64,000 nucleotides of DNA from Pyropia yezoensis (lineage: Eukaryota > Rhodophyta > Bangiophyceae > Bangiales > Bangiaceae): the NCBI GenBank assembly GCA_009829735.1, contig CM020620.1:19690020-19754019 (forward strand), given 5' to 3'. A model generated the notes under the pieces. That model did no database searches. It was given only the letters and a program-made list of their open reading frames with translations, and was not told where the DNA came from. Shown piece by piece: positions 5,448-47,954 of the stretch (within the stretch, counting starts at the first letter, position 1; each line of letters starts with the position of its first letter). A program made the position numbers and the translations under genes.

Positions 5448-8400
5448 ATGGCGGTCACACCACCGGCGGCCGAGCCGGTGGCTGACCCGGCGGCCGTGTC
5501 GGCAGCGGAATCGGTCGCGTCGCCGGTGGTCGTGCCCGCCGCGTCGGCGTCCGAGGTGGCTGACCCGGCGGCCGTGTCGGCAGCGGAATCGGTCGCGTCG
5601 CCTGTGGTCGTGCCCGCCGCGTCGGCGTCGGAGGTGGCTGACCCGGTGACCGGGCCGGTGGATGTGGCGGGTGCAGTGCCGACGGTCGTGGCTCCGGCGG
5701 CTCCGGCCGAGCCGCCGCCCGCGTCGGCGGGCATGTCAAGGGCGGCGTCGGCCGAGGCGTCGGCGGTCTCGCCGGCCGAGCCGGCCGTCGCGGTGTCGGG
5801 CACGTCGACGGCGGCGGCGTCGGCGGGCAAGTGGACGGTGCCGGCGGACACGGTTGCGGTCGCGGTGCCCGTCGTGTCGGCGGGCGCGGTGCCCGGGACG
5901 ATGGCCGCGTCGGCCGCACCCGCGGGTGCGGTGCCCGTCGTGTCGGCGGGCGCGGTGCCCGTCGTGTCTGTGGGCGCGGTGCCAGGGACGATGGCCGCGT
6001 CTGCAACTGAGCCGTTGGCGCGGCAGCAAGAGGTGCCCGTTGACGACGACGAAATCGTACCGGTGCGAACGGGCCGGTGTGCACCCATAATGGCGGACGA
6101 GCCGGTGTTGGAGATGCTTGACATCACAGGCCCTGAGGTGGGGCCAGCGGTAACGGGGACGGCTGTGGCGGTTGGCACCGACCAGTCAGGGGTTGCGGTG
6201 GCCAGGCGGGCACACAACACGGGTGCCCTCGGACTGGTGCATCAGTGCGACGCCCTCTTTGCTCGCGTCGGCCCTCGGGAGACGACCCAGGCCGACGCCC
6301 TGTGTGTGATCCAGGCCACGTGGACGCTTCTTCGTACGGACCAAGGTGTGCAGGTTGCCCAGGCCGCTGTTGCCCACCTGTCCCACTTGTATCTGCCACA
6401 CGCAGGCGACCCGGTCGTGGCACGAGAGATGGCAACCGCCGTTCGACATGCCCTTCGCGGCCCGTGTTTGGCAAACCTGCCTCGCGACAACCTCGAGGCA
6501 CTCGTGGACGTGATTCTCCTCCCCGTCATGGTTCCTGACGTGTGGCGGGCAAAAACGACGATCCACCGCCTGGCGGTGCGGGCGGCGGCGGTGGCGGCGC
6601 CCACACAGATGCTGGTGACCGGCCGGTCTGGGCGGAAGCGGCTGCGTCTCGCCGCCCCTGGTGGCCCTGCCGTCCCGGCCTTGGGCGGTCCTGGGGGCCC
6701 TGCGGGTCCGGCTGCGATGCCGTCTTCCCGTTCATTGACGTTGACCCCCCCCGCGCGGACTTTCGACACCCTAGGGCGGACGAGCCGCCGGCGACGCTTC
6801 CCCGGCAAGATGCGCATGTTGTAGCGGACGCTGGCAGTGGTGGTGGCCAGGAGCTCGCCCACTTCAGCCGCGAGATGGTCGCTGCTGTCGGCGCCGTCTG
6901 CTCGAAATGGCTGCGCAAGCACGGGCCGCTGGTCGATTCTCTTTCCTGGCCGGAACAAGTGCGGTTTTTCCGTACCGCCTGGTCCATGGGCGTCTGGCCA
7001 CCCGAGGCCCAGCGCTTCCTGCTCGACGCATGTGCGAGAGACACTGCCACCGTGCATCAGGCGGTGCTGGCGGGCAAGGGTGGTACTGGAGCGCCCCAAC
7101 AGCCGTTTAAACTGCACACCCGCCTGTGGTCGCATCTGGTCGAGTCGGTCTTCGTACCTGCCGTCGTGGAGCGGGGTGGCGGTGACGACGAGCCTGCCCC
7201 GGCCGGTGCGGGCAGCCCTGACGACGTTGCCCTGCTGATGTCCATGCCAGGGACGCTGGCAATGTTGCCGACGGACTTCTTCGATGCTTTTAAAGAAGTC
7301 AAGGCGTGGAGAACGGCCATATGTGACATGGCGGCTTTGCTCTTCCCAGCCGTTCTGGGACACCCGGGCGCTGCTGCTGCTGCCACCCCGGCTGCGGCCC
7401 TGTTTTCACGTTTAGCGAGGGTCACTGCCTCGGACACTGGCGTCGGGTGGCTGGTGGCGCCCAGCTCAAAGTTCCGACTGTCCGCCCGGGACGTCATCCG
7501 TCGCCTAGCCGGTGTGGGTGAGCGGGGGGGCGGTCGGTCTGATTCGTGGTCCGTCATGGACCTGTTGGATGGGTGCTCACCCGTCCTGCCCGACGGGGGG
7601 GGGCGCGGTGACTCCGCCTGCGAGACCACCAGCGCTGCTGCCCCGGGTCCGCCTTGTGGTGGCCCGCGACCTTTTGACGCCCTGCGCGTCATCCAAAACG
7701 CCGTGCACTTGCTGGATGTTAGTGCGCGCACTGCTCGTGCGGCTCGTCACTGGAACGGCATCCCCCTGCAGCTGTTTCCCGTAAGTACGGCGTTTGTGCG
7801 GGGCGGCCGACAGGTGCTGACGGACGTGAGCGCGGGGCCCCCGGCTGCGGCTGTGGGCTCTCAAGGCGATTCGGACAAAATGTCAGAGGGTGGGGCGCTC
7901 GCCCGTGTCCTGCACCTGCTCATGCGGCTGGGCATCCACCGAGACGTGTCGGAAGCACGGAGTGTCATCCGCTACGCGCTTGTCGGGTGCCTCGTCCGAT
8001 TCGCCGATCCCGCTGGGTGCTCCACCCATTTTGACATCTTGGACGCGGGACACATCGCCCCCGTTGTCAACGAGTGGGTTGACTCGCTGCCGAGCCTTTG
8101 GGAGGTTGCCGTCGGAAACGACAAGGCGGCGCGGACGCGATACAGCTGGGTGTACTATGCGGCCATTTACAACCTGGGGAGTATACCGCTTGCGTCTGGT
8201 GTGCGGGCATCTCGGAGGGCGCTGGCCAACGCAGCAATTGTCTGGTTGGCGTCCCCCTCGGGTATGTCGCCCTGGATCGGACGAGATTGCGAGAATACCT
8301 CCCAGGCCCTGCACAATCTGAGGAGTTTGCTCTGTCCGCCTGCCAAGCCTGGCAAGCGGGTCAGCCCCCTGGTCGAGCAACTTCGTCAGCGCATCGACGA

Positions 8401-10786
8401 ATTACTCGGCGGGTCTGCTGCGCCAGACGACACTGGGGCGGGTGCTGCGCCAGGCGACGCTGGGGCGGGGGCTGCTGCGCCAGACGACGCAGGGGCGGGG
8501 GCTGCCCCTGCCGATGAGGTAGGTGCCGGGTCAGGTGCCGACAAAGATGGGCGGCCTCCCCCAGCGCCCGATGCGACCATGGCGATTCCGTCCGGTGACG
8601 GTGACCCCGACGGCATTACCATTGGCGACGACACGGGGGACGAAGTCCTGTTTGTGTACTACCTGCCCGCGGTGGCGGTCCCAGACAATGTTTTGGCTGC
8701 GCAGGCCGTATCCCCTGCGTATGATGCGGAACCCTGCAACGTCATTTTGTTTGTTGACGACGACGATGACTGGCATGACGCAGAGAACGATGGCGTGACT
8801 GTCGTCAGTGTGGACCGGGTGGTCCGGGCCGGCCAACTGGTCGGGCAGCGGCGCACGTCCTCCGCCACTAGGGCGGCCGCCCATGTGGCAGTAGCTCAGA
8901 GTGCTGCCACCTCTGTCGCGACGGTAGCTGCCACCTCCTCCGCGACGGCAGCCGTCCCAGGCGGGCCCTCTACGCCCGAGGTTGCTGTCACCGCTGCTGC
9001 TCCCGATGCTCCATCGGCGGCGGGTATAGCCACAGGCGCGGTGGATGCTGTGGCTGTGGGTGCTCCTGGCGTTGGTGGGGCTCCTGCGGGCAAGGCGGCC
9101 GTGGCCGACGCGAGTGTTAGCGGAGGTGCACCTGCTGAACCTGGTACTGCTGCAGCAACCGACACCGCGGGGGTGGCTGCGGTGGGCACGGCAGTGGCTC
9201 GGGGGGAGGAGCCCTCTTCCGCTTTGCCTGCAGTTGCAGACACGGAAGCGGCTGTTGTTGGAGGTGGGACTGCCGGCGTGGGAGGTCCTTGTATCGGTTC
9301 CCCGGGTGGTGGGGGGGACGCGTCCTTCACTGCAGCACCACTGCCCGCGGCGGCGGTGGCGGCGGCGGGGGGTGGTGCCAGCCAGGCCAGTCCTCCCACA
9401 CTGTGTGGAGCGGATGGTGATCGGGTGGCGCTCGGTCAGCGGACGCTCTGTACGTCCGAGTCTGGGTGGACGGGTGTCCCAACCCACCTGCGCCCGTCCC
9501 CGTTGTACGCAAGAGGACCTGGGGGCCGCTGGCAGGCCATCGTTGTCGCCACCTTGTGCCAGCTAGCCGCCCGCGGTACAGATGCGGTGGAGCAGTCTAT
9601 CGAAGGGAGCAACAAGGGCCATGGCGGCGGCGGCGGACGCAGTGGGCGCGTGACCACGTCGTCACTGTGCTTCCGCTTTGGCGTGGCTCGCATCGACGCG
9701 CCCATAACCCTGTCGTCGCCGCAGGTGGGGGGGTCCATCTTGGACGACCCGCGGGCGTGTCGCATGTGCAACGTGCTCGTGCGTATGCCCGCCCCCCGGG
9801 GTGGTCCTCCCGGTGGGGGCGGCCGCCACCACCGCCGCCACAAGGACCGCGGGGGAGAGTGTCAAGTGGACCCCACAGACGCCACCCCGGGTGATTTGTG
9901 TGCCTTTTGGGTACCGGAACCCGTCGGCTCGGTGTGCAGCACCCCCGTGGACGCCGTGTTTATTGGCCGCTGCGAGGACAAGAAGGGGCAACCCGGCGGG
10001 GGGGTTGGTGGCCCACCGCTCGCGGGGGCAGGCCAGTGGTGGGTGGACAAGACGCCTGGCCCGGGGCTGGACGAGGGGGACGATGACACCGGCACGGCGC
10101 GCCACGGTGGCGCATCCAGTCCCCCCCGGCGGTGGTGGTTTGCGGTGCGTCGCTCAGACGTGCGGCGGATGCTCCATCGCCGGACGGCGAATGTGGTCGT
10201 CACACTGTCTCATAGTGTCCTGTCGGACAGCCGCGAGTTTGGCGGCCTCGGCCACTGGGACCTTTTTCCGCCAGTCATGCAAAGGGCGCTCGCCATCCAC
10301 GCAACGCCTCGGCACGGGAGACAGCAGGTGGTACCTGTACCGGCACCGGGGCCTCCCCCCCTGCAGAGCGCTCCTTCACGCTACGCCCACGTGGACGAGT
10401 TCCAGTGGCGCGCAGTCGATTGCATGCGCCGGGGGCTGTTGTCGGACGAGTGTGACGTGCAGCTGGTGACGGGCCCCCCCGGGACGGGCAAGACACGCGC
10501 CATTGTCTCCATGGTGGACATGGTACTTGGGACCCTGCCAGACGGGCGGGTGCTGCTGACGTCGCGCACCAACACGGCGTGCGACGAGCTGTTGGACGCA
10601 GTGCGCGAGTTGTTCTGTCCGTCGGGGGATGCCAGTCGACACGGCGTCGCGAAACCCGATGCCGTGACGCTCCTCCGTGTGGGTGAATCCCCTCCGGATG
10701 GCCACCGTGCCAAGACAACGCACATTGACGCCGTGGCGGACGAGCGCCTTCCTGTCGCCTACCCGTCCGTGACAGTCGCGGTGTAA
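5448..10786 (+). CDS. UPF1-like SF1 helicase, N-terminal and Walker A part, ends at in-frame TAA
   Basis: The likely start is ATG 5448. The frame from there codes a disordered Ala/Val/Ser region, then globular sequence (around HQCDALFARVGPRETTQADA), until TGA 6824. The protein continues in another frame, open 6542-10786 with no ATG near its beginning, so a short intron or an indel must lie at about 6560-6830. This second frame codes a large helical region, a Gly/Ala-rich linker, then a helicase domain. The domain has an N-terminal Gln-motif-like segment (YAHVDEFQWRAVDCM), Walker A GPPGTGKT (10472-10495) and motif Ia SRTNTACDEL. Translation then meets TAA at 10784-10786, before the remaining helicase motifs, which continue in the same frame downstream. 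Family knowledge: these are RNA/DNA-translocating NTPases related to UPF1, senataxin and ZNFX1. The N-terminal about 1,200 residues are unlike any I recognise. Confidence 0.65.
5481..5714 (+). repeat. 78-nt (26-residue) in-frame tandem repeat
   Basis: GCTGACCCGG occurs at 5481, 5559 and 5637, a 78-nt period, and encodes repeats of the type ADPAAVSAAESVASPVVVPA. The third copy diverges after its first residues. It lies inside the disordered N-terminus of the helicase-linked reading frame. Confidence 0.75.
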
Positions 10787-11938
10787 CGGGCAAGGGCACG
10801 GGTGGCCGATGTGGGCCGTCGTGTGGATCGTTTCCGCGCCCAGGGTGCAGAGCCGGGCGCGGGTGGGTCACAAAACCTCCTTGAGGAATGTGCCGATGCG
10901 GAGCAAGCCCTGGAGGCTGCCTTGCGTCGCCAGCAGCGTGCGGAACGGGAGCTCCGCAAGCGCATCGTGGGCGGCGCGTCCGTCATTGTCACAACCACGT
11001 CAACGTCGACGGGGGCGCTCGTGGGGGGTCAAGGCTTTGACGCCATTATCATTGACGAGGGTGCGGCAACAAGCGTCCCTGCGTCTGTCGCCGCCATTGT
11101 TCGCGCCAAGCGGGCGGGGCGTGCGGGTGGCTCGTCTAATGAAGAAGAGGACGGTCACCCGGCAGAGCGGACCAAGTGCATTTTCCTTGTTGGCGACAAT
11201 GCCCAGCTGAGGCCGAACGCCGACATGGAGTACAGGGGCGAGACACGGCCGATGGCATCCAGCGTTGTTGAGCGGCTCGCCAGGTTTCTGTCCGCTTGCG
11301 TCATCCTCTCCGTGCAGTACCGCATGCGGCCGCTGTTATGGTCCCTCCTCCGACAAGTCTTTTACCGGCACATTGGCATATGGTCGGGCGGGCGCGGGCC
11401 CAAGGCCCGCCATGAGGAGGGGTTTGGAACACCCGCGTGGCTAAACCATCCGGGACAGCCTATTCGCTTTGGAGGGCTGCAAGTGACAGACACCTCCCGC
11501 CTGCCGGCCGACGATCGGGCGCACAAGACGGGTTCCACCACCCCCAACAACAAGAGCCTGATTAACGTTGCAGAGCTTCGGTTGGTCGAGATGGCTCTTA
11601 CGGATCTACTGCGGGCGTGGGCGACGTCCAGCGGGGCTACCGAGCTCAAGGTGATGCTCATCACCCCGTACACTGCGCAGCGGAACAAACTGAATGAGGT
11701 GGTGCAGTCGATGAGAGACAGCAGGCGGCTGCCCCGCAGACCGTGTGCCGACGTCAGGGTGTCCACCGTGGATGGCTGTCAAGGCGCTTCTGTGGACTGT
11801 GTCATACTCCCCCTCGTGCGGTCAGAGCCTGGGGCGCCACCCGGCGGGAGCACCGACTTTTTGTCCGACGAGCGGCGCGTGAACGTCATGATGTCGCGGG
11901 CACAGAGCCATCTCCACGTGATTGGTGACATGGACTAG
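10787..11938 (+). CDS. C-terminal half of the UPF1-like helicase, same frame, downstream of TAA
   Basis: This continues the upstream frame directly after the TAA, with no shift, and ends at TAG 11936-11938. Motifs appear in the expected order: Walker B IIIDEGAAT (Asp codon 11054), motif III VGDNAQLRP, motif IV QYRMRP, motif V VSTVDGCQGASVD, and motif VI DERRVNVMMSRAQSHL, then the terminal HVIGD. Motif II reads DEGAAT where UPF1 relatives usually have DEA(T/G)Q. The first codons after the TAA encode an Arg-rich helix and a coiled coil (CADAEQALEAALRRQQRAE) that sits where other family members have their 1B/stalk insertion. So the two parts are one gene interrupted by a nonsense codon or needing readthrough, not two genes. 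Alone, this half lacks Walker A and could not hydrolyse ATP. Confidence 0.7.
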   Translation, partial: RARARVADVGRRVDRFRAQGAEPGAGGSQNLLEECADAEQALEAALRRQQRAERELRKRIVGGASVIVTTTSTSTGALVGGQGFDAIIIDEGAATSVPASVAAIVRAKRAGRAGGSSNEEEDGHPAERTKCIFLVGDNAQLRPNADMEYRGETRPMASSVVERLARFLSACVILSVQYRMRPLLWSLLRQVFYRHIGIWSGGRGPKARHEEGFGTPAWLNHPGQPIRFGGLQVTDTSRLPADDRAHKTGSTTPNNKSLINVAELRLVEMALTDLLRAWATSSGATELKVMLITPYTAQRNKLNEVVQSMRDSRRLPRRPCADVRVSTVDGCQGASVDCVILPLVRSEPGAPPGGSTDFLSDERRVNVMMSRAQSHLHVIGDMD

Positions 11939-12239
11939 CTTTCAAGCTCTGGGGGTGTGTGGAAGAGCTGGTGGGACAACGTCCGCCGTAGGTGGAGCCG
12001 TCCAGATCGACGGGACCGCGAGCACATCAACATTGTGGCTCCCGACAGGGTGTACTAGTCGGGAATATCTTTTGTTTCTGGGGGGGAAGTGGGGGGGGGG
12101 GGGGGGGCTGTACGGCACCCCCTCTTTTTTATGCTTTGAAGGTGTCGCTTTTCATGTGGTGGTCGGTTGTTCCCCAGTGTTGTTCCAAACTGCTGTCGTT
12201 GATGTTTTGAGTTGCGTGACCAGTTGGACAAAGACTCAT

Positions 12240-12902
12240 ATGGCAAGGTCGCGCCCAAGTGCCACAGCACCGTCCGTGTATGTGGGCCCACAGCTCAGCA
12301 CCCAGGACTCCACCGTGGTCGGCAGGCACGATGGCGGGCTCATCGCGTCGCTCTCTGTCCGACGGTGGGCGCGCGGGGTCATCACTGGCCTCCTCCAACA
12401 GAAGAGGTCCTTCCGGGCCATCGGTACGGATTTGGGGCGCTCCAAGCGCACCATCGCCTACGCAGCTATGGGCCATCCGCACGGAGTCCGCCCGCGCCAG
12501 GGTGGACAAGCGGGGTCGCCCCAAGGTTTTGACGGACCGTGAGCTCTGTAACGTCAAGCGGGCGCTTGACACTGACGGGTTTTCCTCTGTGGCATCCCTG
12601 AAGGAGATGGTGAATACCACGCGCACCCAAGCGACCAGAGGGCCCGAGAAGGGACCAGTGTCAGTCTCCGCTGTCCGCAGGGCCGTCTGGAGCTTGGGTT
12701 TTCACTCCAGGGGGAAGCGGCCAAGAAACCCTTCCTGTCTGCCAAGAACGTCGCCAAGCGCCTTGTGTGGGCCACAGCGCACCGCGGCTGGATGGCTCTG
12801 CGCGACGGGTGGGACGCCATTCCTGCTTCGTTTTTCAAGTCTCTCGTGGAGTCGATGCCCTGTCATGTGGGGGGTGTGATAGCCGCTGCGCAGCGGATCT
12901 AA
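12240..12902 (+). pseudogene. Tc1/mariner transposase relic lacking its DDE core
   Basis: ATG 12240 opens a frame with a helix-turn-helix (ITGLLQQKRSFRAIGTDLGR, then SKRTIAYAA). Near 12475-12490 the sense switches frame to RVDKRGRPKVLTDRELCNVK and a second helix-turn-helix-like region (PVSVSAVRRAVWSLGFHSR). Near 12715 it returns to the first frame with KKPFLSAKNVAKRLVWATAH, the conserved sequence just before the catalytic domain of Tc1-type transposases. It then jumps within a few residues (GWMALRDGWD) to the extreme C-terminal pattern of the family, AIPASFFKSLVESMPCHVGG, and stops at TAA 12900-12902. The roughly 150 residues that would carry the catalytic acidic triad are missing, and two frame changes are present. 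It cannot be active. Confidence 0.75.
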
Positions 12903-13540
12903 AACCGTGTATCTTATTTTCCGTGCATCGGGCCCAAACAGGCGGGCAATGGATTGCAGGGGGGCGCCCAGGGGCCCCGTAAAGCCCGATTTCCGCGTGC
13001 GAGAGCGCACACGGCCGCGTTGCGACCGTGCTTCCCACTCTTTTTTTTTTTTTCTCTCGTCGACGACCGTCATCAGGGAGGCAGGGCCTAATTTCCCACG
13101 GCCTGTGTGCGTCTCGCCAGAGGGGCGTGCCGCGGGGCGCACAACGAGGCGACCGTGACCCGAGAGTACGTGTCTATGCAGCAATATCCACGTTTCATGA
13201 CGTGCCCGAATGGTGTCAGTCGCTGGTGCTGCACTGCTGCACTGCTGTGCAGGCTTCCTCACGTGACCGCGCAATGCAATGCATGCGACGGGCACGGCAT
13301 TCACGTGTTTGTGAATGTTGCTGCAGGCACGGTGTTTTGCGCGACCAGGGCCGCACTTCAAATTGTGCATGCCCTGCAGCGTTTTACATGATGCCAAGGC
13401 GTGCACCGCTGACAATGTGAAATTTTACGGCTTTGCAGAAGCGGCGACGCCCGGGCCCGCGGGGCGTGCAAACAGGCATTCGACAGTGCGCGCACGTGCC
13501 GGCACGGAAAAAAAGATACACGGTTTAAGACCCGCTACGC
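12888..13540. mobile_element. TIR-bounded non-autonomous element (Tc1/mariner-like ends)
   Basis: Left end 12888-12926 and right end 13502-13540 are inverted repeats matching at 35 of 39 positions (core AAACCGTGTATCTT then TTTCCGTGC). The left TIR overlaps the last codons of the transposase relic, whose stop lies inside it. The roughly 575 bp interior has no recognisable gene. The ends resemble those of the foldback element at 1233-1385. Confidence 0.65.
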
Positions 13541-15148
13541 TGGGGGTGCTAGCACGAGGTATTGTCCAGCCCAGGGCCTGGATTTGATGGGTGGCCTGTT
13601 GTCAAATCGATCCGTACGAATCTCGTTTTTCGCCGTACGGATAATATTGGGATAATATTGGGTACCGACTGTACGTAACGCTCTTCGGATCTTTGTAGAC
13701 ATTGTTCGCCAGAGCTGACGTATCGCGTTTGGTGCATAACGGAACGAGCTGGGCGGTCACATAGTTGTTCTATTGTGTGGGCGCGTGAATTAGTGTCTTC
13801 CGATTGCGTCATGGTGGGGGGGGAAACCATAAAGAGAGGGCGACGGGCGGGGGAGGGGGGGCGAATTGAATTTCGATATCTGAGATCCCCGACCACCGGC
13901 TGACACCGACGCGGATCGAACGGGAGGGGAGGGGATTTGGGCGGCGGCGCGAGATGATGTTGAATTGGACGGTGACGGGGGTGTCCGGGGATGGGTGCTC
14001 TCATCCGTCGGCCGCACGTTCAGCCACAGGCAGGTCCGGTCAGTCGCTTCCCTCGGCGCCCCCCGGGTCTGACGAGAGCCGTAGGTCCACGCGGCCCGCG
14101 CGGTGTCGTGTGCTGGTGACAGGCATTTGGAGGCACCGCGCGGTGAGCTCGCAGCATGGCAATGCCGTCTGTGGCGGTGGGTTTGAGGTACACGACTGCC
14201 CCCCCTCCCCCCCCACCAAGACGTCCAGGATGATATTTTTCCCAAACGGTGCTCGTAATGCATTGCAAGCGGACGGGGCCTGCCGGAAGCACCAAAAGGC
14301 TGGGTGCCCGCGTCCCAACACGCCGCCCCACATGCACCGTGGCGAGCAGGCAGTGCCGAGGGTGGGTTCAATTGCAGTGTTGTTATTGTCCCGCAGCACG
14401 GTGGCGGTCACTCTCCCAATACGTGCCGTCGGGAGCGGGGTGGGGGGGGGGGGGGGGGGGGGGGCGCTCGCTCGCCATGGTTGGGCGAGCCGCACGGATG
14501 CTGGCGTGTCAGTTGGCTCAAATGCCGCAGTGCATGCGGTGCACTCCGTCCCGCACCCACCGTCGTGCTACTGGCGGCTGCCATGAGCACAGCGTCTGTG
14601 CGCGGTCTGCAATTGGGCCGCCAACCCCATCACCACCACCGCCGCCGCCACACCACCACCGCCAGCCCCACCACCGCCACCGCGAGCTCTTCCACCACCA
14701 CCGCCGCCGCGCCACAGGACACTCTCACGGCAGCCACTGTCGGCCACGGGTGCCTCGGCGATGAGAAGGATATTTAATTTCCGGGGCGGTGAGCTAAGGC
14801 CACGCGACAGCCCACAGGGGCACGTGGCGGTGCGAGCATCCTCCGCTATGCCCCCTGCCCGAGAGGTAGCGTCGGTTTGGGGGTGGCGGGGGGCGGGCGG
14901 CGGGGGGGAGAGGAGGGGGGCGGGGGGGGGGGCGGGGGCGGGGGGGCGGGGGGGGGGGGGCGGGGGGGGGGGGGGCGGGGGGGGGGGGGCGGGGGGGGGG
15001 GGGGCGGGGGGGGGGGCGGGGGGGGGGGGGGGGTTGGGAGGACCTGGACCGCAGGCATACTGACGGCCCGTGTAGCCCATCGCCAGCGTCTCCAGCACGC
15101 GTACGGCAGCGAGTGAGGACCCCGGCCCGCATGGTGCCTTGCCAGACG
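13541..15148. other. No supportable gene; simple repeats and long G runs
   Basis: This stretch holds two direct GGATAATATT copies (about 13638-13660) and a G run of about 20 at 14441-14462. It also has CCACCACCGCC-type simple sequence (14634-14720) and a very long G-rich tract just upstream of the Fanzor gene. Open frames on both strands are short and low-complexity. Confidence 0.4.
14879..15033 (+). repeat. About 155-bp nearly pure G tract (G-quadruplex prone)
   Basis: Runs of 5-20 G separated by single C residues on the plus strand, about 280-430 bp upstream of the Fanzor start codon. Length is uncertain because such runs are hard to sequence. Several G-quadruplexes are possible. Confidence 0.8.
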
Positions 15149-15156
15149 ATAAATAG
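15149..15156 (+). promoter_or_regulatory. TATA-like box upstream of the Fanzor gene
   Basis: ATAAATAG stands out in GC-rich sequence 153 bp before the chosen start codon. Between them lies a C/T-rich leader resembling the leaders before other ATGs in this window (for example before 20762). Confidence 0.35.
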
Positions 15157-15308
15157 GGCGGTAGGTGGTGCCCCGTGGTTCCCCATCTTTGCCGACCCCA
15201 TCAGCCACCGTCGACAATCCCACCCACCCACCCTCCCCCCAGTCGTTCCCACACCCCCAACCCGCTCTTCCGCCTCCACCCCCCCCCCCCCCCCGCCCCG
15301 GATTCACG

Positions 15309-18300
15309 ATGAACGATGATGACGACGGCAGCGACCAAGACATTGGCGTCGACGGGCTGGACGGCGACACCACCTCAGACGAGGAGTGGGACCCGGCACA
15401 AGAGCAGGCGTACGTTCAAGACGCACGCAACGTGGTGACGCTCAAGCGGGCGGTGCTCGCCGCCAACCTGAGCCGCCTGCAGGGCGTGTCAGCACCCCAC
15501 GGGGGCGACGCGGCCTCGTCGGCCGACTGGTCTGCCGCCGTCGCGCAGTTGCAGCAGGCGGCCAAGGATGAGGAGGCGGCGGGCCCCCTCGACGGCGCCG
15601 GCGAGGACCTCGTCGCGGCCATCACAGACGCGGCAGGGGCGGTCAGCGTGTACTGTGGTGGTCGGGCGGCGCCAAGCGAGGCCGAGGTGGAGCTCGCCGC
15701 ACGCGCCAAGATGGCCGCTGGGCTGATTGGCGTGGCCGCCGCGGGCTTGCCCCGGCGCGAGGCTGCCACTGACGCACCGCCCGCCCGCAAGGGGCGGACG
15801 CAAAAGTGTAGCGGATGTGGCGAGTCCGGGCACAAGGTCACCTCTTGCAAGGCCCCGGCTGGTGCAGGGCCGGCAGCCGCTGCCGCTGCCGCCGCCGTCC
15901 CGGCGGCGGCGGCGGCGGCCGCGTCCAAGTGTCGCGACTGCCTCGGAGGGGGCCACAGCAGCGGGGACGCCGCCTGCCCGGTGCAGCGGCACTGTGGGGG
16001 CGTGTCAGCGGCCTACAACCGCGGTGTCAACCCCGACTGCAAGGACCCGCTTCAGAGCACTGGACGGCAGACGCGGGCGTGTACCGTGCCGGTGGGCGTC
16101 CTCGCGAGGGCGGTGTTTGGGGACGACAAGGACGACGCCGACATGCGCGCGGCGGTGGAGACGGCGCTGCAAGCAGAGCTGGAGGACCTCTCTGGGGCGG
16201 CTACCAAGCTCCGCTTCCTCATGCTCCGCGTCCTCGACGTGGCATTGCGCCGCCTGGTGTCGACCGTCGCGGACGCAGCCGCCGACGACGCCGACTGGAC
16301 GGGGGCCGTGCCCGCAAACTGGGCGCCCGTCTGGCTGTGGTTGGCCTACGCCTGCGGCTGCGAGGGTGTGTCTCGCAGTCCCCTGCAGGCGGGCACCGTG
16401 TGTGCGGGCTGTGGCAAGGGGCGGGCCAACACGCGGATGGCGCGCGCCCGCTCTGTGGTGACAACGAGCCACCCGCTGCTGGCAGAGGCGCTCTCCTACG
16501 CCCTGACGCAGGTGATGGCCGTCACGGCAGCTGCGTGCGACCGGTATCTTCCAGCGAGCAACAACACGGCACGATGGGAGCCCGTCGCCACCATCGTGGC
16601 CACCCACGCCGGGCGGTGTGTGGACGCGGCGTGTCGCAAGCTGGGCGCCAAGGCGGCCAAGGACGCGCTGGCCACCCCCCCCGCTGCCACGGCTGCTCCA
16701 GCGGGCGGCTCTGCCTGGGACACGGAGCGGCGGCTGACGCGGTGGGCGGCCGCGCGCTTCCGCGCGGGTATCGCGGACAAGGCAACGCCGGGCCGGCGGG
16801 GCCTCGACGGCGTCCCCCAGCACCTGGTCCAGGCGCTGGCGCAACGGGTAGCCGTCATGCGGGCGGCCATGCCACCCTCTGTGGCGGGCCTCTTTCCAGC
16901 AACGCCTGTGAAGAAGCGCCGCTGGAGGGCGTACGTGCCGTTTCTCCTCCAAGTCCTGAATATGGGTGTGGGGAGCCCGTACGCCCTCATCCCTGGCGCC
17001 CGAGCGGTGCTCCACGGTCACGGCACGCTGGTGCCGGACAAGATGCTCGCCCTGTTGCGGGCAGTTTCGGCCGCCACTGGCGTAGGGGTGCGTGGCCACC
17101 CCAGTCTTCGGGCATGGCCAGAGCTGCGAACGGGCGGTGCAGCGGTGCTGGCCGCCATGGCTGGTGTCGGTGGCCGCGCCAACCGGGCCGCCTCCCAGCT
17201 GTCTACCGACGGCGTGGCGGTGACGTTTTTTCTGTCTCGACCCGACACGGCCGCAGAGGCCGAGGCGCGGGCGGTGGCCTGGGCCAAGAAGCTGGACGGC
17301 GGTGGACATGCGCGGGACCGCGGCGGCAAAGGCTTTGCGTCCCGGGCGGGGGTACTGACGCAGCTCGAGCGGGCTGGCCTGCCGTTGGCGCGCGTCCGGT
17401 GGCTCCAGATGGTCGGCGGAGACCCGGGACGGTCTGCCGTACTGTCGGCAGCACCGGGTGAGCGCGTGGCGACGGCGGACCTCCCAGCCCGCCCCGCTGT
17501 GGCCGCAATGCGCGCCGCGTGGGCCCGCCACATGGGCTTGGACGCGCTCAACCGGGCGGCCGTGGCGCTCCTGCGTGGGGCGGGCGTCCAAGACGGGGTG
17601 GCGGCAGCCGCAACCACGCCCGAGGGCCACCCACCGGGGGGGTCTAGGAAGCGGGCGGCGGCGGGCACCCCGGCTGCAGGGGTGGGAACAGGGGGGGGCC
17701 GCTCCAAGCGACAAGCGCGGCGGTCGTCACCCGAGGGGAGCGACGATGATGCGGCGGCGGTGGCTCCGGCGGCGGCGGGTGGGACGACGCCCCCCGAGGC
17801 AAGGACCTACCAGGCGGCGAGCCCCGGCGGTGGCCACGGGCGCGTGCGGCGTGGGCCGCAGGCGTCCATCCGACGGGCCCGCCGCACCCAGCTCGCCACC
17901 TCGGTGCGGCGTGTGCTGCGTCGCACGCGCCTGTCCCGGTGGACTGTGCCCCGTCACGAGGCGGAAAAGGTGGCACGGTGGCTGGTGGACCCCACTGCCG
18001 CGGCGGGCAACAGTGCCAGCGGCACCATCCCAGACGCGCCGCTGCTGGACCGGGTGGACGCGCTGCCCCGGCGCAGGGGGTGTCGTCGACTGGCACCCGT
18101 CCCCGGCCTTCGCTACAGCCTGAGTGCCGCCCACTTTCGCGAGGCCAGCGGCGGTAACTTTTTGGCCCGTGCGTGGAAGCAGTGGCGGGCACGCAGCGGT
18201 ACTGAGTCGGGACCGGTGGCGGTGGCGGTGGCGGGACTGGTGGCGGCGGCGGCGGGTGACGGAGGCGGCGTCGCTGGCCACCTACCACCCGTCGACTTGG

Positions 18301-19502
18301 CAGCAGCACACGGCACGATGCGTACCGGCGACGACGGCAAGCACCTGCAGGCAACGCTCGAGTGGGCCGCCCGTCGCGACACGGCCGCGTACGGCCAGCA
18401 ATTTGGCGCGCAAGCCACGCGACACCTGCGGACGGCGCGTATGCACAAGGCCATCCAACGCGGCCACTTTGCTGCCTCGGTGGCGCGGGACCTGACCGGC
18501 GGCCTCCTTCGCCAGGTCCGTGGCGGCGGCGCGGTCGTCGTGGCCATGGGCACCGCGCGCGTGCGCGGGGGGGACGCCTGGCTCCGCAGCCACCTCCGAC
18601 GGCTGTGCTGGTTTTTCGACCAGGACGAGTTCAACACCAGCCAGGCGTGCTCCGAGTGTCACGACAAGATGGTGCTCATATACCCGACGGGCAACCCCCC
18701 CCCCAAGATTCCAAGAGAGCTGAATGGGCCGCCGGCTGGCCCTCTGCCGTCGACACGGCGTGTGCGGATGGCGGCTGGGTCGCGTCGGGGGCGGCCAAAG
18801 CGGGCCCTCCCCTCTGCTACCCACGTGACGCGCCGAGGGCCAGACCCCGACGCCTACCGGGAGGCCGTCCGAGCCACTGCCCGTGCTGCTGCTGTGGCGC
18901 AGAGCGCGGCCGCGCTGGCCGCCTGTGCCGTCGAGGACCGCGCCGTCTATGCCGACCCGAGGCGGCTGAGCGAGTGGGCGGCCAAGGGCTGCTACACGTG
19001 CTCTCTCGCGGCCCCACAAGGCCCCGGTCACCCAGCGCCACACCCGCCCGTGATTCGCAATCGGGACGACGTTGCGGCCCGCAATATGGCGTGGGTGGCC
19101 GCTCGTCGTCTCACGGGTACCAACGTGTGGCCTTTCAAGCGCCCTTTTGGTATGAGGTGGGCCTGGACGACCAAGCGTCCTCCCAGTGGTGTTCCCGTCC
19201 CGCCTGTGCGTCGCACCCGTGCGACTACGCGGGTCGATGTATGGCCCGTACTCGCTGCAGTGGACACTGTCGTCGACGGTGGTGGTGTTGGTGGCGGTGG
19301 CGGTGGTGGTGGCGGTGGCGGTGGCGGTGGCGGTAGGAGCGTTGTCGACGGCGACGCGACGGCGGCGTCCTGTACGACGCGACGCGGTGGTCCTGGTGGG
19401 GAACGGGTGGCGGGGGCCGGCAGTTCCATGGACGGGGTACGTCGGGCGGAGACGGGGGCGAGAGACGCATTCCGTGGTCTGGTGAACACTGCAAGACGCT
19501 AA
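15309..19502 (+). CDS. Fanzor: eukaryotic TnpB-like RuvC RNA-guided endonuclease
   Basis: Start ATG 15309 follows a C/T-rich leader and begins an acidic N-terminus (MNDDDDGSDQD); the frame is open upstream to ATG 15165 but looks untranslated. Length 1,397 residues, one exon. Order of features: a CCHC zinc knuckle (C167, C170, H175, C180); a second knuckle-like CX2CX4HX6C (C208-C223); a helical domain with RAYVPFLLQVLNMG; the Fanzor hallmark QLSTDGVAVTFFLSRP (D634); RuvC-I VGGDPGRSAVLSA (D705); a basic disordered insert (about 760-880); and YSLSAAHFREASGG. RuvC-II VVVAMG (1076-1081) lacks the usual Glu. Next come DQDEFNTSQACSECHDK (E1107; zinc ribbon C1114/C1117), a long insert, C1228/C1231, and RuvC-III RNRDDVAARNM (D1253). 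Family knowledge: Fanzors cut DNA guided by an RNA encoded at the element's 3' end, and travel in several DNA transposon types. All catalytic positions seem present and no stop interrupts the frame. Confidence 0.85.
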   Translation: MNDDDDGSDQDIGVDGLDGDTTSDEEWDPAQEQAYVQDARNVVTLKRAVLAANLSRLQGVSAPHGGDAASSADWSAAVAQLQQAAKDEEAAGPLDGAGEDLVAAITDAAGAVSVYCGGRAAPSEAEVELAARAKMAAGLIGVAAAGLPRREAATDAPPARKGRTQKCSGCGESGHKVTSCKAPAGAGPAAAAAAAAVPAAAAAAASKCRDCLGGGHSSGDAACPVQRHCGGVSAAYNRGVNPDCKDPLQSTGRQTRACTVPVGVLARAVFGDDKDDADMRAAVETALQAELEDLSGAATKLRFLMLRVLDVALRRLVSTVADAAADDADWTGAVPANWAPVWLWLAYACGCEGVSRSPLQAGTVCAGCGKGRANTRMARARSVVTTSHPLLAEALSYALTQVMAVTAAACDRYLPASNNTARWEPVATIVATHAGRCVDAACRKLGAKAAKDALATPPAATAAPAGGSAWDTERRLTRWAAARFRAGIADKATPGRRGLDGVPQHLVQALAQRVAVMRAAMPPSVAGLFPATPVKKRRWRAYVPFLLQVLNMGVGSPYALIPGARAVLHGHGTLVPDKMLALLRAVSAATGVGVRGHPSLRAWPELRTGGAAVLAAMAGVGGRANRAASQLSTDGVAVTFFLSRPDTAAEAEARAVAWAKKLDGGGHARDRGGKGFASRAGVLTQLERAGLPLARVRWLQMVGGDPGRSAVLSAAPGERVATADLPARPAVAAMRAAWARHMGLDALNRAAVALLRGAGVQDGVAAAATTPEGHPPGGSRKRAAAGTPAAGVGTGGGRSKRQARRSSPEGSDDDAAAVAPAAAGGTTPPEARTYQAASPGGGHGRVRRGPQASIRRARRTQLATSVRRVLRRTRLSRWTVPRHEAEKVARWLVDPTAAAGNSASGTIPDAPLLDRVDALPRRRGCRRLAPVPGLRYSLSAAHFREASGGNFLARAWKQWRARSGTESGPVAVAVAGLVAAAAGDGGGVAGHLPPVDLAAAHGTMRTGDDGKHLQATLEWAARRDTAAYGQQFGAQATRHLRTARMHKAIQRGHFAASVARDLTGGLLRQVRGGGAVVVAMGTARVRGGDAWLRSHLRRLCWFFDQDEFNTSQACSECHDKMVLIYPTGNPPPKIPRELNGPPAGPLPSTRRVRMAAGSRRGRPKRALPSATHVTRRGPDPDAYREAVRATARAAAVAQSAAALAACAVEDRAVYADPRRLSEWAAKGCYTCSLAAPQGPGHPAPHPPVIRNRDDVAARNMAWVAARRLTGTNVWPFKRPFGMRWAWTTKRPPSGVPVPPVRRTRATTRVDVWPVLAAVDTVVDGGGVGGGGGGGGGGGGGGGRSVVDGDATAASCTTRRGGPGGERVAGAGSSMDGVRRAETGARDAFRGLVNTARR

Positions 19503-19760
19503 GACAGCGCACATCTTGCCCGTGACCCTCACCTACCACGGGGTGCGTCAGCCGCCCCCTTTTTCGCCGACGAGCCAATTATGGGTAATTGTCGGCCGTT
19601 CACTAGTAGGTTAGACGCCGGCTTTTCCCGGGGCAGGATGAGTCGGATGTTTCCCGGAGGGGTTTAACCGATAGTTACTCCGTGCGAGACAGCCTTTAAA
19701 CTTTCAAACTCGTCACATGGACCGGCCATCCGCAGCCGATGTAATTACGCCACTTTGAGA
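19503..19760 (+). other. Candidate guide (omega/fRNA) region 3' of Fanzor
   Basis: This 3' flank is less GC-rich than the genes on either side and contains at least one strong stem-loop (19566-19596). In known Fanzor and TnpB loci the guide RNA overlaps or follows the 3' end of the nuclease gene, so this is where it would be expected. No direct evidence of transcription; inference only. Confidence 0.3.
19566..19596 (+). ncRNA. Stem-loop in the Fanzor 3' flank
   Basis: CAATTA (19576-19581) pairs with TAATTG (19586-19591) around a 4-nt loop. The outer GCCGA (19566-19570) pairs with TCGGC (19592-19596), leaving a 5-nt bulge on the 5' side. It starts 64 nt after the Fanzor stop. It could be part of a guide RNA, a 3'-UTR structure or a remnant of a transposon end. 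Confidence 0.35.
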
Positions 19761-20761
19761 CTTGGAGTCGTCTGGTACTGCGGTGAACAACAAGGAGAGC
19801 CGCGGTGACCCATTTCCTCTCCCGCGCCACAGTCACTCGAGCGGCGACGCGTGGAATCCGTTCTCTCGTTTTGCCACCCCTCCCGCCGCGCGCGAGGCAG
19901 GAGCGCGGCACGTCCCAGATCTGCCCAATGGGGCGCCTCCCCCTCCCCAGCGAACCGTTTCGGGCCGATTTGAACTGGCACCCCTTCCCGCTTCACCCCC
20001 ACCACCACCACCAGGAAAGGGCGGAGGAGGGGGAAAGAAATTTTGCCAGACACAGGCCGCGTTCGCGAGCCGCCTTCGATGCCCCACCCCCGCGTCCCCT
20101 GCCAGCGCCGTCTCCCCCATGCTGCTGTGCCCACGGGCCCACCGCCCCCCCCGTGCGAGCGAGCACCCTTTCGATTGGGGTCCACGCGCCGCAGCCGCCT
20201 GCCCTTCCCTACCAGCCCGCCGCAGAGACAGACACGACGCGAGTGTCGCGTCGGCCGCCGGGTGACTCGGCGGGCCCAAGTCTGCCTGGCCGCGCCCCCA
20301 CCCCCCGCGACCGCCCTGGTCCGGGCCTGGGACGGCACGCGAGACCACAGCGGCCAAGTACTGTAGTGGGCATGCGCCCTCCCACCCTCTCCGGGAGCTC
20401 CCCCCCCCCCCATCTTCTCATCCTCCTTGCGCGGCCTGCACGTGTCACGTTCCCCCTCCTCCCCCACTGCCACTGGCGGCGCTTCGTCGCTAGGAGAGTG
20501 GTAGTGGGACCGCGCCCGACCCGTCGCACCCACACGGGCCTCTGCCGCGCTCGCCCGTTTGTTTTTGGGTGGCGCCCGCTGCCGCTTCGCATCTCTGGGT
20601 GGTCTCGCCTGGTTGCCCGCCACGGTCGATTCCACTGTGCTTCTCTTTGTCTTTTTCTTTTTTTGTTTGTCACACCGGTGCGGTTCGCCCCTGCCGACTC
20701 GCCGACGGACTCCCCTGATTCCGACCGTCCCCCCCCGCCCCCTTCCCCCTCCCCCTTCACC

Positions 20762-21026
20762 ATGGACGTGACGTCGCCTCAGGAAGAGGGCGCAGCGCCC
20801 TCCTCCCTCCTCGGTGGCGAGGACCTGGCGTGGGACACTGGTGACGATGGCGAGTGGACCGAGGGTGGACACTACCGCCGCGACCGCGACGGCGGGGGAC
20901 CACAGGTGGTGGCGGCGGCTGAGTCGGCTGCGGGGGCGGCGGGGTCCAAGGTGGGAGCCGGGGGCGGTGGCGTCAGTGCGGCACCGCCCCCTCCCAGCTG
21001 GCGGAATGACTTGGATTGCTCTCCAG

Positions 21027-24500: not shown

Positions 24501-25262
24501 TCAGCTCACGTCCACGTCAATCACATCCGTTGCCTGCACGTCCACTGTCGCCTGCGTTGGGTCGTTCAACCCAAACGAGCCTGCCCGGTCCGCCTTGATG
24601 ACCTGCCCACAGCTCATGCACTGGAACGGCTGCGCCTTGATGCCCGTCACCGCCGACCCACAGTTGGGGCACACCCCCTCTGAGATGTTGCTGCTCACCC
24701 ACCATCGGAAGAGCAGCAGGCCCACCACGGGGACCACCGACAGGACCGCAAAGATAATGAGAAAGGAGTCGAAAATAAAGCCAATGCGCCCAGTAATGAC
24801 AAGCCACACGAGGACGCCCCAGACGGCGAGCTGGCCATTGCTGCTCTTGGCAAACCGGCCAGCTTTGAGCGCCACGTCCACGAGGCGCTCCTGCGGGCTC
24901 CGGGACATGCGCAGACCACCCGCCGTGGAGCCGTGGGGGCCGCCGTCGGCCGAGTCAGAAGGAGAGGGGGGTGGGGCAGACAGGTGGCGACCCGTGCGGC
25001 AGCCTCGTTGCCGCCACCGCAGCGACAGCATGGACGGGGCGCCCGCCCAGGGAGTCGTGACCGCCGTGCCAGCCGCCATAACCGACGCCCACCGCGGCAG
25101 CCGCACTGTGCCACCGCCGCCGCCGCCGCCGCTGCATCCGCCGCCACCGCTGCGGATCCAACTCGCCCGCGGGGGAGTTGTGCAGGCAACGGTAGCTGAG
25201 GCGAGCCGCTGCGGCGGTGGCCGGACAGCACCCGCCGCACCCACGGCAATGCAAAACGCCAT
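24501..25262 (-). CDS. Small membrane protein with C-terminal zinc ribbon, probably organelle-targeted
   Basis: The preferred start is ATG 25262-25260 (GCCATGG context), giving 253 residues; the frame stays open upstream to 25442. The first about 125 residues are rich in Ala, Arg, Ser and Thr with few acidic residues, as in plastid or mitochondrial presequences. The mature part begins near SRSPQERLVDVALKAGRFAK. Two hydrophobic segments follow (LAVWGVLVWLVITGRIGFIF and FLIIFAVLSVVPVVGLLLF). A four-cysteine ribbon comes next, CPNCG then CMSCG, 18 residues between pairs. The tail is acidic (VQATDVIDVDVS). Similar two-helix plus zinc-ribbon proteins occur in algae and plants, but I cannot name the family. 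Orientation is opposite to the neighbours on both sides. Confidence 0.7.
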   Translation of the reverse strand: MAFCIAVGAAGAVRPPPQRLASATVACTTPPRASWIRSGGGGCSGGGGGGGTVRLPRWASVMAAGTAVTTPWAGAPSMLSLRWRQRGCRTGRHLSAPPPSPSDSADGGPHGSTAGGLRMSRSPQERLVDVALKAGRFAKSSNGQLAVWGVLVWLVITGRIGFIFDSFLIIFAVLSVVPVVGLLLFRWWVSSNISEGVCPNCGSAVTGIKAQPFQCMSCGQVIKADRAGSFGLNDPTQATVDVQATDVIDVDVS

Positions 25263-26522
25263 GGCCCCACCGGCAGGAACGCCAGCGGTGGTTGACCGGC
25301 AAGGACCGCAGTAGCAAGACGAATGCAGCAACAGGGGAGCACGGGGGGGAGGAGCCACCCGGAGTGTGTCGAAAAGGGGGTCGGCGGCTGACGCCACGAG
25401 CCAGGATGATGCAGCGTGTGGGGGGTGTGGGGGGGGGAGCATAGAGTAGGCGCTCGTGGCGGAACTTCGTGCCTCACAGCTCGATGAGCGGCAGCGAGCA
25501 GGAGCCGTCGTGATGAGCAGCGGTCGGTAGTCGGCAAGGCGGGAAGAGTGAAGGGTGCTGGGCAGTCTGAGTAGCTGTGCCGCGCGGCAAATGCCGCGGC
25601 CGAGACACGGGCAGCGGGCGGGTTGCGAGGGCAGAAGGTGGCGGCGTCTGCTAGAGAGGACCGTAGCCGCGCGAGGTTCGGTGAGATACGCACCACGGAC
25701 ACGCGCTTACCAATCCGCCGGGTGGAGGGTTGTTGCCAATTCCGGGTGGAAGAGCACACGGTGGAGTATTTGTTTGCCCGACCGCACTGTAAATATGGCT
25801 GGGGGGACAGGCCATACACTGCGAGCAGCACAGTGCAAACGCCGGTTTTCCGTGTAACTCCTCTCCTCATTCTGTCTGAATCAACCCCGCTGGTCGCTCT
25901 TGTCGCGCGACCGCACACCCACCCGTACAAAGTGACCAGGCCCCGAGCCGAAAAGCAGCTGTGGAGGGAGGGGGTGGGGGAGTCCCACAGACTGTGCCGG
26001 AGGGGGCTTCGACGCCCACGGGTGCGTCCCTCGGGGGCTGCTCGTCGCGCTGCTGCCGGTGGCGCTCGCCGCCGTGGCTCCCACGGCGACGTAAGCCCAC
26101 CGGCGGCTCCCCCTCCCCCTTCCCCCGCACGGCGGGGCGCTGCGGCTCGACGGGCAACGCCAGCCATCGCTGCGCAGGCCCCCCCCCCCGCCTCGGCCGG
26201 CAGCGCCGCCGCCACGCGTCACCACACCTCCATGCGGGTGCGCCCCCGCCGCGGGGGTGTGCGCGCCGGCGGGCGGGCGGCGGGCCGGGCGGTCGTGGCA
26301 GCGTCGGCCGCGGTGAGCACCACGCCTTTCTTTGTCTCTCCCCTCCTGAGGTCACCCTCTCACGGGGTGGCCACCCGTTTCCGCCTCTGCCCCGCCGCGC
26401 CCTCGACACTGCGCCGCTCGCACGTTCCCCTCGGGTGCACCTCCCCTCACCCCTCCTCCCAATTCTACCCCTGTCCTCTCCCCGCGCCGCACCCTTTCCT
26501 GCCCCCCCTACCGCGCGTCGCA

Positions 26523-36087: not shown

Positions 36088-36303
36088 TTTGATCGCATTG
36101 ATGTCAAAGGTGCTGGAAGGATCTTCGGATTGCAGGTAAATGGCGAAGACAGGAACTTTTTGAATAAGGTCCTTGGCGAAGCGTTGCCTACTAATCAGGC
36201 CATGGGGTTTCTTGAGGGAGGCAGTGATGGAGATGTTCTTTTGGTTAAACTTGAAGGAGATCTTGTTCTTCTTGTTGTTGATTTTGGCGTCCTTGTCGTC
36301 ACG

Positions 36304-36639
36304 TCATTTCTTTCCGAGGATGATGTCGTACGCACTTAGGTCGCATACAGCAAACCGAAGACGTTCTTGGTATGGGCCGATGTGAATCTCTAAGGGTTCA
36401 ATGGTCTCTGCGAGGACGTGGGAGCGACCATCGGGCATGTTAGCCGCGAAGTCCGTTTCTTTCGTGGTCACATTCAGGGTATTAACGAGGCGCCTTGATA
36501 CGACGTTAATGGGAGATCCGTCGTCAAACAGCACCTTAACAAGATGTCCATTGACAGAGGCAGTAGAAAGCAGAAGCCCGAGACGCGGGCCTTCAAATGG
36601 TGACGACATGTTTTCAGGAACCGAAGAAGGGTCTGGCAC
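36304..36639 (-). CDS. Chromovirus aspartic protease region, ends at in-frame TGA
   Basis: Open in the same frame as pol but closed by TGA at 36304-36306, directly after ILGKK, where gypsy proteases normally continue with a short hydrophobic motif into RT. The catalytic motif reads LFDDGSPINVVS, whereas the family usually has D(S/T)G, so the second position is unusual. YDIILGKK is the conserved C-terminal motif. There is no ATG near its start; expression is expected by -1 frameshifting from gag. The TGA, if not read through, would block synthesis of RT and integrase. Confidence 0.8.
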   Translation of the reverse strand: MPDPSSVPENMSSPFEGPRLGLLLSTASVNGHLVKVLFDDGSPINVVSRRLVNTLNVTTKETDFAANMPDGRSHVLAETIEPLEIHIGPYQERLRFAVCDLSAYDIILGKK

Positions 36640-36662
36640 CGGTTTTGATGACGGTTGCTGCT

Positions 36663-37532: not shown

Positions 37533-37878
37533 GGTGTCTTGGGTTCAAGTCCGAGGCAAACAAACTTACAACCCAGATTTCACAAGACTTGCTTGGGGAG
37601 GACCCCAAGGAAGATCTCGGAGATGTGGGATAGGAGTTTGTCTGCAGCAGTAGTGGTGTACACGATTTGGATAAGTGCTGCGCTAGTTGCTGCAACGTTC
37701 CAAGTGATGTACAGCACTACTTCGAGAAGCACAAGAAATTCGGTTGAAATCACACAAACGGATTATTCAGAAGCGTCCGTGCACAGGCCCGAGTCGGGTC
37801 GTGTCGGATTTCCAAGCGGGGGGATCAATGGGGGAAAATCGGGCTCCTAGGCCAGATCCAGGGGCGCGTCAACAGGTG

Positions 37879-47727: not shown

Positions 47728-47954
47728 CCTTCGCGCCCGTGACGTGCGGGCTGGCGCGCCTCACCCTGGTACCTCAACGGCGGGGGTGAGCCAAGCAGGC
47801 AGGTATCAGAGAGAAAGGGCCATCGGCGCAACAGTATGAGTGCGGACACCTGCATCGCGGGTCGCCGCCCCACGTTGCATCTGTACAGCAGAAAGCTCTC
47901 CCCCCGGTACGAGAGGGGAGAGGATGCCAATTGTCGGCCAGGTACGGCGACACA

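Follow-up and report, generated by a model that had tools for sequence, protein, structure and literature searches.

A predicted, oversized Fanzor1-like gene belonging to a multicopy family in the red alga Pyropia yezoensis

The open frame and its motifs

This study focused on a single, long open reading frame (ORF) in a 64,000-nucleotide stretch of Pyropia yezoensis DNA (contig CM020620.1), here called the window, to which all nucleotide coordinates refer. The ORF carries motifs resembling those of Fanzors, the RNA-guided DNA nucleases of eukaryotes (PMC10432273), and probably belongs, as one of several copies, to an oversized Fanzor1-like RuvC nuclease family of Pyropia-like red algae, which mobile elements probably carry. 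Three protein searches gave 15 rows, representing ten distinct relatives: six unnamed P. yezoensis proteins and four diverged proteins (P0003, P0010, P0011 and P0012) with 53-61% identity to the window protein. The family set therefore had 11 members including the window protein (P0001-P0003 and P0005-P0012; P0004 was an unrelated ORF). The features of the ORF, with protein lengths in amino acids (aa), are as follows.

15309..19502, forward strand: predicted Fanzor1-like ORF, 1,397 aa, one uninterrupted frame
15807..15848, forward strand: CCHC zinc knuckle pattern C-x2-C-x4-H-x4-C, residues 167-180; exact pattern in P0001, P0002 and P0003, the three family members that span it completely
15930..15977, forward strand: second knuckle-like site C-x2-C-x4-H-x6-C, residues 208-223; pattern present also in P0002 and P0003
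16353..16412, forward strand: cysteine cluster C349, C351, C365, C368; all four cysteines retained in P0002, P0003 and P0010
16920..17108, forward strand: conserved helical block, residues 538-600, ahead of the TDG motif
17205..17213, forward strand: TDG motif (T633-D634-G635), described as a Fanzor1 WED hallmark (PMC10711439)
17415..17432, forward strand: RuvC-I motif GGDPGR with predicted catalytic D705; placed by hhalign on TnpB VGID-x-G, though shuffles score as high
17601..18308, forward strand: low-complexity insertion between RuvC-I and RuvC-II, residues ~765-1000; D705 and E1107 are 402 residues apart
18528..18659, forward strand: putative RuvC-II strand with the displaced E1107 (18627-18629) and first zinc half-site CSEC, residues 1114-1117 (18648-18659); from motifs and hhalign of residues 1070-1130
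18660..18989, forward strand: spacer of 110 residues splitting the zinc ribbon, against 12-18 in the published description (PMC10711439)
18990..19001, forward strand: putative second zinc half-site CYTC, residues 1228-1231; KACVSA in P0003 and KGCTTGC in P0012
19059..19088, forward strand: RuvC-III motif NRDDVAARNM with predicted catalytic D1253; from the motif, hhalign and MAFFT
19191..19499, forward strand: Gly-rich C-terminal tail, residues 1295-1397; GC content at third codon positions 0.592

An earlier note, made from the letters of the window, had described an uninterrupted frame of 1,397 codons in an algal-type genome. Translation confirmed the frame and its coordinates, and the closest database relatives are indeed P. 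yezoensis proteins (Rhodophyta, Bangiales). The frame is free of stops from position 15165, begins with the ATG at 15309 and ends with the stop codon at 19500-19502; its start methionine and N-terminus (MNDDDDGSDQD) are common to the P. yezoensis protein I4F81_002529 (P0002), which is 96% identical. None of 300 order-2 Markov sequences, each of 13 kb, matched the open run of 1,445 codons (mean longest run 677, maximum 1,360). Frame length by itself nevertheless gives weak support, because the sequence is stop-poor, as the Markov mean indicates. Third-position GC was 0.842 over residues 1-530 and 0.788 over residues 531-1294, and since that of the last 103 codons is lower than in the body, the Gly-rich tail looks less constrained.

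The residues that the earlier note had singled out were all found at their places and in the order TDG (D634), GGDPGR (D705), E1107, CSEC, CYTC and NRDDVAARNM (D1253). None of 20,000 residue shuffles of the protein reproduced this arrangement, and a six-frame scan of the window gave a single occurrence of the pattern E-x2-[TS]-S-x2-CxxC, inside this frame. Identity to P0003, calculated in blocks of 50 residues, was highest in the block around TDG (residues 601-650, 88%), followed by the RuvC-I and RuvC-II blocks (80% each) and RuvC-III (66%), and lowest in three linker blocks (28-36%). From its conservation and its position relative to TDG, the helical block of residues 538-600 is probably part of the REC/WED region. 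Residues 401-450 (16509-16658), ahead of this REC-like block, are 78% identical to P0003 and contain no recognised motif.

The CCHC knuckle pattern arose in two of 20,000 shuffles, and had no significant library match (zf-CCHC_6, E=3.6; HIV-1 nucleocapsid, E=4.6). Besides the window protein, only P0002 and P0003 fully span both knuckles, and both keep them. The cysteine cluster at residues 349-368 is a possible further zinc site. Within the RuvC insertion, a bipartite basic pattern matched P0003 and P0010 and not the window protein, in which similar basic runs can be seen by eye, and these basic clusters may be nuclear-targeting.

Relationship to TnpB and Fanzor1

As library searches alone do not establish homology, a set of TnpB-like ORFs was assembled from viral contigs by means of a DNA pattern for RDVNAARNI. 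This yielded at least 80 ORFs of at least 330 aa, 67 of them distinct, which are named TnpB-like by motif and not by annotation. A window-side profile of residues 536-1290 (six rows, three after filtering), aligned to the 67 ORFs with hhalign in local mode, gave a probability of 73.6 and a score of 46.4 over residues 992-1117. None of 30 column shuffles scored above 22.8, and the reversed profile scored 19.3. Residues 1040-1290 gave a probability of 73.3 and a score of 40.8 (at most 24.2 in 60 shuffles), while residues 1070-1130 alone, covering RuvC-II and the first zinc half, gave 86.7 and 37.4 (at most 19.8 in 60 shuffles). Sub-hits to RuvC-I and RuvC-III lay in the expected order, with scores of ~18-23 that were inside the shuffled range. 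In each of six unguided MAFFT runs with the ORFs of 340-480 aa (65 of the 67), matching columns were found for E1107, T1110, S1111, C1114, C1117, C1228, R1252, D1253 and N1259. The column of E1107 held E in 36 of the 65, and C1228 fell on a cysteine column, unlike C1231. Because the set was selected by the RD pattern, that column does not vary within it. At the level of sequence, these comparisons show the protein to be homologous to TnpB in the stretch of RuvC-II and the first half of the zinc ribbon.

In published descriptions, Fanzors near-exclusively have DPG together with a glutamate six residues ahead of the zinc motif, a combination present in <1% of TnpB homologues and called "exceedingly rare", and the TDG motif is characteristic of Fanzor1 (PMC10711439). 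The ORF carries all of these marks: DPG (D705), E1107-x6-CSEC and TDG, as well as RD (R1252-D1253). Most Fanzor1s are described as 600-700 aa long (PMC11423790), with some reaching ~800 aa, and Fanzors in general as ~500-800 aa (PMC10711439); the earlier note was right that this protein exceeds most Fanzors, at 1,397 aa against mostly 600-700 for Fanzor1. The extra length lies in the N-terminal knuckle region, in ~244 residues between the catalytic D and E beyond those of SpuFz1, in the split zinc ribbon and in the Gly-rich tail. We class the ORF, within the TnpB/Fanzor superfamily, as a Fanzor1-like variant that is divergent and about twice the normal size. A Fanzor2 would be expected in an IS607-type context with a serine recombinase, and no recombinase was found among the Pfam matches of 17 other window ORFs scanned.

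Among the matches listed, 53 of 97 TnpB-like frames from virus contigs have the motif E-x2-[TS][TS]-x2-CxxC, and none of the 53 has DPG; a glutamate ahead of the zinc motif does not mark a Fanzor by itself, because so many TnpB-like ORFs carry a similar motif. Degenerate-DNA searches of viral contigs for known Fanzor1 returned 0 and 0 matches, and seven further viral-contig stretches had no in-frame motif within an open frame of at least 80 codons. A pattern scan of prokaryote genomes gave one locus, which showed no motif-bearing frame of 100 codons and was not used. A second match to the Pfam family PF07282 in the window, at 24504-25706 on the reverse strand (E=0.0019), was rejected as a Fanzor: the short stretch (CPNC...CMSC), which follows hydrophobic segments, was judged to be a generic zinc ribbon, and its translation showed no RuvC motif.

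A multicopy family and the condition of this copy

The ORF is one member of a multicopy family in Pyropia-like red algae, judging by sequence, because the six P. yezoensis proteins and the diverged group are its relatives. The six are 87-96% identical to it and lie on three chromosome-sized contigs (43.6, 34.3 and 29.4 Mb). The copy number is a minimum, drawn from protein models, and each protein search scored the 8,000 candidates that had the most words in common with the query, so that distant relatives may be missed. The six gene models, of 434-1,108 aa, are shorter than the ORF, and none of them spans all three catalytic positions. Those positions are spanned by two of the 11 members, the window protein and P0003, and D, E and D are retained in both. 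P0003 is a full-length relative (1,347 aa, 61% identity) that keeps TDG, DPG (as GVDPGR), E-x6-CxxC and RD. The glutamate of E-x6-CxxC is present in P0003, P0009 and P0012, and is K in P0011. Hallmarks have been lost in several members: TDG became TNG in P0006, DPG became DTG in P0010, E became K in P0011 and RD became PE in P0012.

The earlier note had suggested from the open frame that this copy may be functional, and this part of its account was not borne out. Judged against the majority residue among the other P. yezoensis copies, the private replacements of the window copy were equally frequent at clade-conserved (12/406) and variable (8/257) positions (p=1), so the openness of the frame gives no support for function. 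In the same test, P0002 had 5/406 versus 9/259 (p=0.057), P0005 5/286 versus 5/146, P0006 9/213 versus 10/122, P0007 15/234 versus 29/161 (p=0.0005), P0008 13/211 versus 10/154 and P0009 17/238 versus 17/139; one of the seven copies fell below 0.05. A drift model with ~42 missense changes, in which only point changes were allowed, gave a probability of remaining stop-free of ~0.09-0.27, depending on the substitution model. An open frame alone is no evidence of the activity of this copy.

The window copy looks recent and already drifting. At positions identical in all other covering copies it has changed 20 of 556, against 5 of 488 in P0002. That this is a dying copy is an evenly balanced proposition: the family would work, or once have worked, as a Fanzor, and this recent insertion would be unconstrained and have stayed open through its youth and a stop-poor sequence. 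It agrees with the even spread of private replacements, with the drift estimate and with the loss of catalytic or hallmark residues in P0006, P0010, P0011 and P0012. On the other side, the three predicted catalytic residues and TDG are intact, and the 3.6% of conserved positions that have changed is only the third lowest among the seven P. yezoensis-type copies (1.0-7.0%); these counts are small and depend on gene models of uneven quality. Such decay would concern this copy and not the family, and is compatible with the family being Fanzor1-like.

Weighing the evidence, and comparison with known Fanzors

Several results weigh against a Fanzor1-like family carried by a mobile element. The ORF protein scored 14.2 bits against PF07282, below the gathering cut-off of 26.3, and had no match in NCBIfam. 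No TnpB or Fanzor chain was among the 60 PDB matches listed for the whole protein, where the rows with alignments were Gly-rich linkers, and the core had no PDB match. By hhalign, neither RuvC-I (probability 0.9) nor RuvC-III (8.8) was significant by itself, the long profile had one sub-hit of four out of order (the cysteine cluster at 349-368 on the zinc ribbon), and an earlier run with other settings gave probabilities of 0.0-0.1. D705 was not registered in any of the six MAFFT runs. AlphaFold2 models of residues 250-1290 and 535-1294 (nine rows each) had mean predicted local distance difference test scores of 32.8 and 31.2, that is, no confidence. The published Fanzor1 pattern D-x(125,275)-[TS][TS]-x2-C4-x(5,50)-RD (PMC3627910) fails on the ORF, where D and E are 402 residues apart and the zinc halves 110; the comparison with Fanzor1 was made through published descriptions. 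The second zinc half does not take the C-x2-C form in either relative that spans it, P0003 or P0012. Regarding an element, inverted repeats between 11901-14900 and 19503-20300 did no better than a score of 23 in any of four comparisons, where shuffles reached maxima of 24-34, Rfam had no match in 12000-21000, and the 300 nucleotides after the stop codon gave no folding signal (z -0.06).

The profile search that the earlier note had proposed gave a divided outcome, with PF07282 below its cut-off and hhalign to the TnpB-like ORFs above the shuffles, and the structure prediction that it had also proposed gave the AlphaFold2 models of no confidence. Its assignment to TnpB/Fanzor stood as regards the superfamily and the Fanzor1 marks, and did not extend to the published spacing, to PF07282 or to conservation of the second zinc half. 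The ORF is not filed as a canonical Fanzor1, because the strict spacing fails and the second zinc half is not kept.

The unconserved second zinc half in P0003 and P0012, along with a ribbon split by 110 residues, would fit descent from a Fanzor in which RNA-guided cutting has gone, nucleic-acid binding persists and the zinc-ribbon (target-nucleic-acid-binding) domain has been remodelled. This is unlikely, as the window protein and P0003 both retain D, E and D, and the TDG, RuvC-I and RuvC-II blocks are the best conserved.

Upstream of the ORF, on the same strand, lies a remnant at ~12240-12880 that we take, from reading its translation, to be a Tc1/mariner-type transposase. Fanzor1 genes inside Tc/mariner elements have been described (PMC3627910). 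That the ORF is cargo of an element of this kind, with the remnant as its transposase, is decidedly improbable, since inverted repeats did not rise above shuffles in the flanks, and the remnant seemingly lacks its central part, is interrupted by another, small element and lies 2.4 kb, from break to ORF, away. The possibility that the protein is no relative of TnpB/Fanzor at all, just a big Ala/Gly/Arg-rich protein with motifs by coincidence, is very remote: no library model rose above its cut-off and the structure predictions lacked confidence, but the motif and profile shuffle controls, and the conservation peaks on the motifs, argue otherwise.

The small element, at 12883-13545, has 44-nucleotide inverted ends that are 86% complementary, with TA at 12880-12881 and 13550-13551, and is apparently inserted in the end of the transposase remnant; a relative of its end is found at 1346-1397 on the reverse strand. 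The other long inverted repeats among the matches listed are of low complexity. Elsewhere in the window there is a helicase-like gene (AAA_11/AAA_12) at 6539-11935 on the forward strand, in one frame with one in-frame stop at 10784-10786. A Ty3/gypsy element occupies 33151-37544 on the reverse strand, with a chromodomain-bearing pol and a gag with a zinc knuckle (36666-37544). Its pol, at 33151-36303, is open over 1,051 codons, so the remark in the earlier note that most mobile genes nearby carry stops was only partly right. At 45508-47760 on the reverse strand, a 751-codon open frame encodes an ABC transporter (domains ABC_tran and ABC2_membrane) and is probably a host gene.

That the protein is guided by RNA, that it cuts, that its element moves, and what its knuckles and insertion do are all inferred. 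By homology, the protein would bind a guide RNA transcribed from its own element. A DNA target adjoining a short motif would be opened through the WED/REC part, which includes the TDG block, and cut by a RuvC site formed by D705, the displaced E1107 and D1253. Additional binding of RNA or single-strand DNA would most likely come from the N-terminal zinc knuckle or knuckles; a nuclear-targeting or partner-binding sequence may lie in the RuvC insertion. More tentatively, and with the balance somewhat against it, the Bangiales red algae may possess a distinct, giant Fanzor1-like lineage, well beyond the described maximum of ~800 residues, with acquired retroviral-type knuckles and a rebuilt, split target-binding domain. 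If so, this lineage may handle its guide RNA or target unlike other Fanzors. A lineage whose proteins reach ~1,350-1,400 aa and bear additional zinc sites would extend the known tolerance of the fold and point to new accessory nucleic-acid-binding modules. Pyropia is a group of farmed seaweeds. Public chromosome-sized assemblies mean that the copies, their expression and any guide RNA can be examined from existing data.

In the library searched, no paper linked Fanzor with Pyropia, Porphyra or a zinc knuckle; supplementary tables may list these Pyropia proteins. A red algal Fanzor1 family has already been published, that of Cyanidioschyzon merolae, with ~150 copies (PMC3627910). Its CMe-1A resembles the present family, as described there, in being red algal and multicopy; it has no terminal inverted repeats, and around the ORF none rose above shuffles. 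The entire CMe-1A element is ~3 kb, less than the ORF alone (4.2 kb). With the described Fanzor1s (SpuFz1, GtFz1 and PpFz1) the ORF shares TDG, DPG, the displaced glutamate of E-x6-CxxC, RD, and an occurrence in eukaryotes in multiple copies; it differs in length, these being up to ~800 aa, and in having N-terminal zinc knuckles and a zinc ribbon with its halves 110 residues apart. In SpuFz1, D and E are 158 residues apart (D383-E541) and E and D 65 (PMC10432273), compared with 402 and 146 here. FRI, a segment of ~100 aa that is inserted in the RuvC domain and binds cyclophilin (PMC11423790), is similar to the insertion of the ORF in being an additional RuvC segment; the ORF has ~244 aa beyond SpuFz1 between D and E. 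Prokaryotic TnpB proteins with a glutamate ahead of the zinc motif can be aligned with it at RuvC-II and the first zinc half, but are far shorter, have a compact ribbon and, among the frames with the glutamate motif, lack the DPG that the ORF shares with Fanzors.

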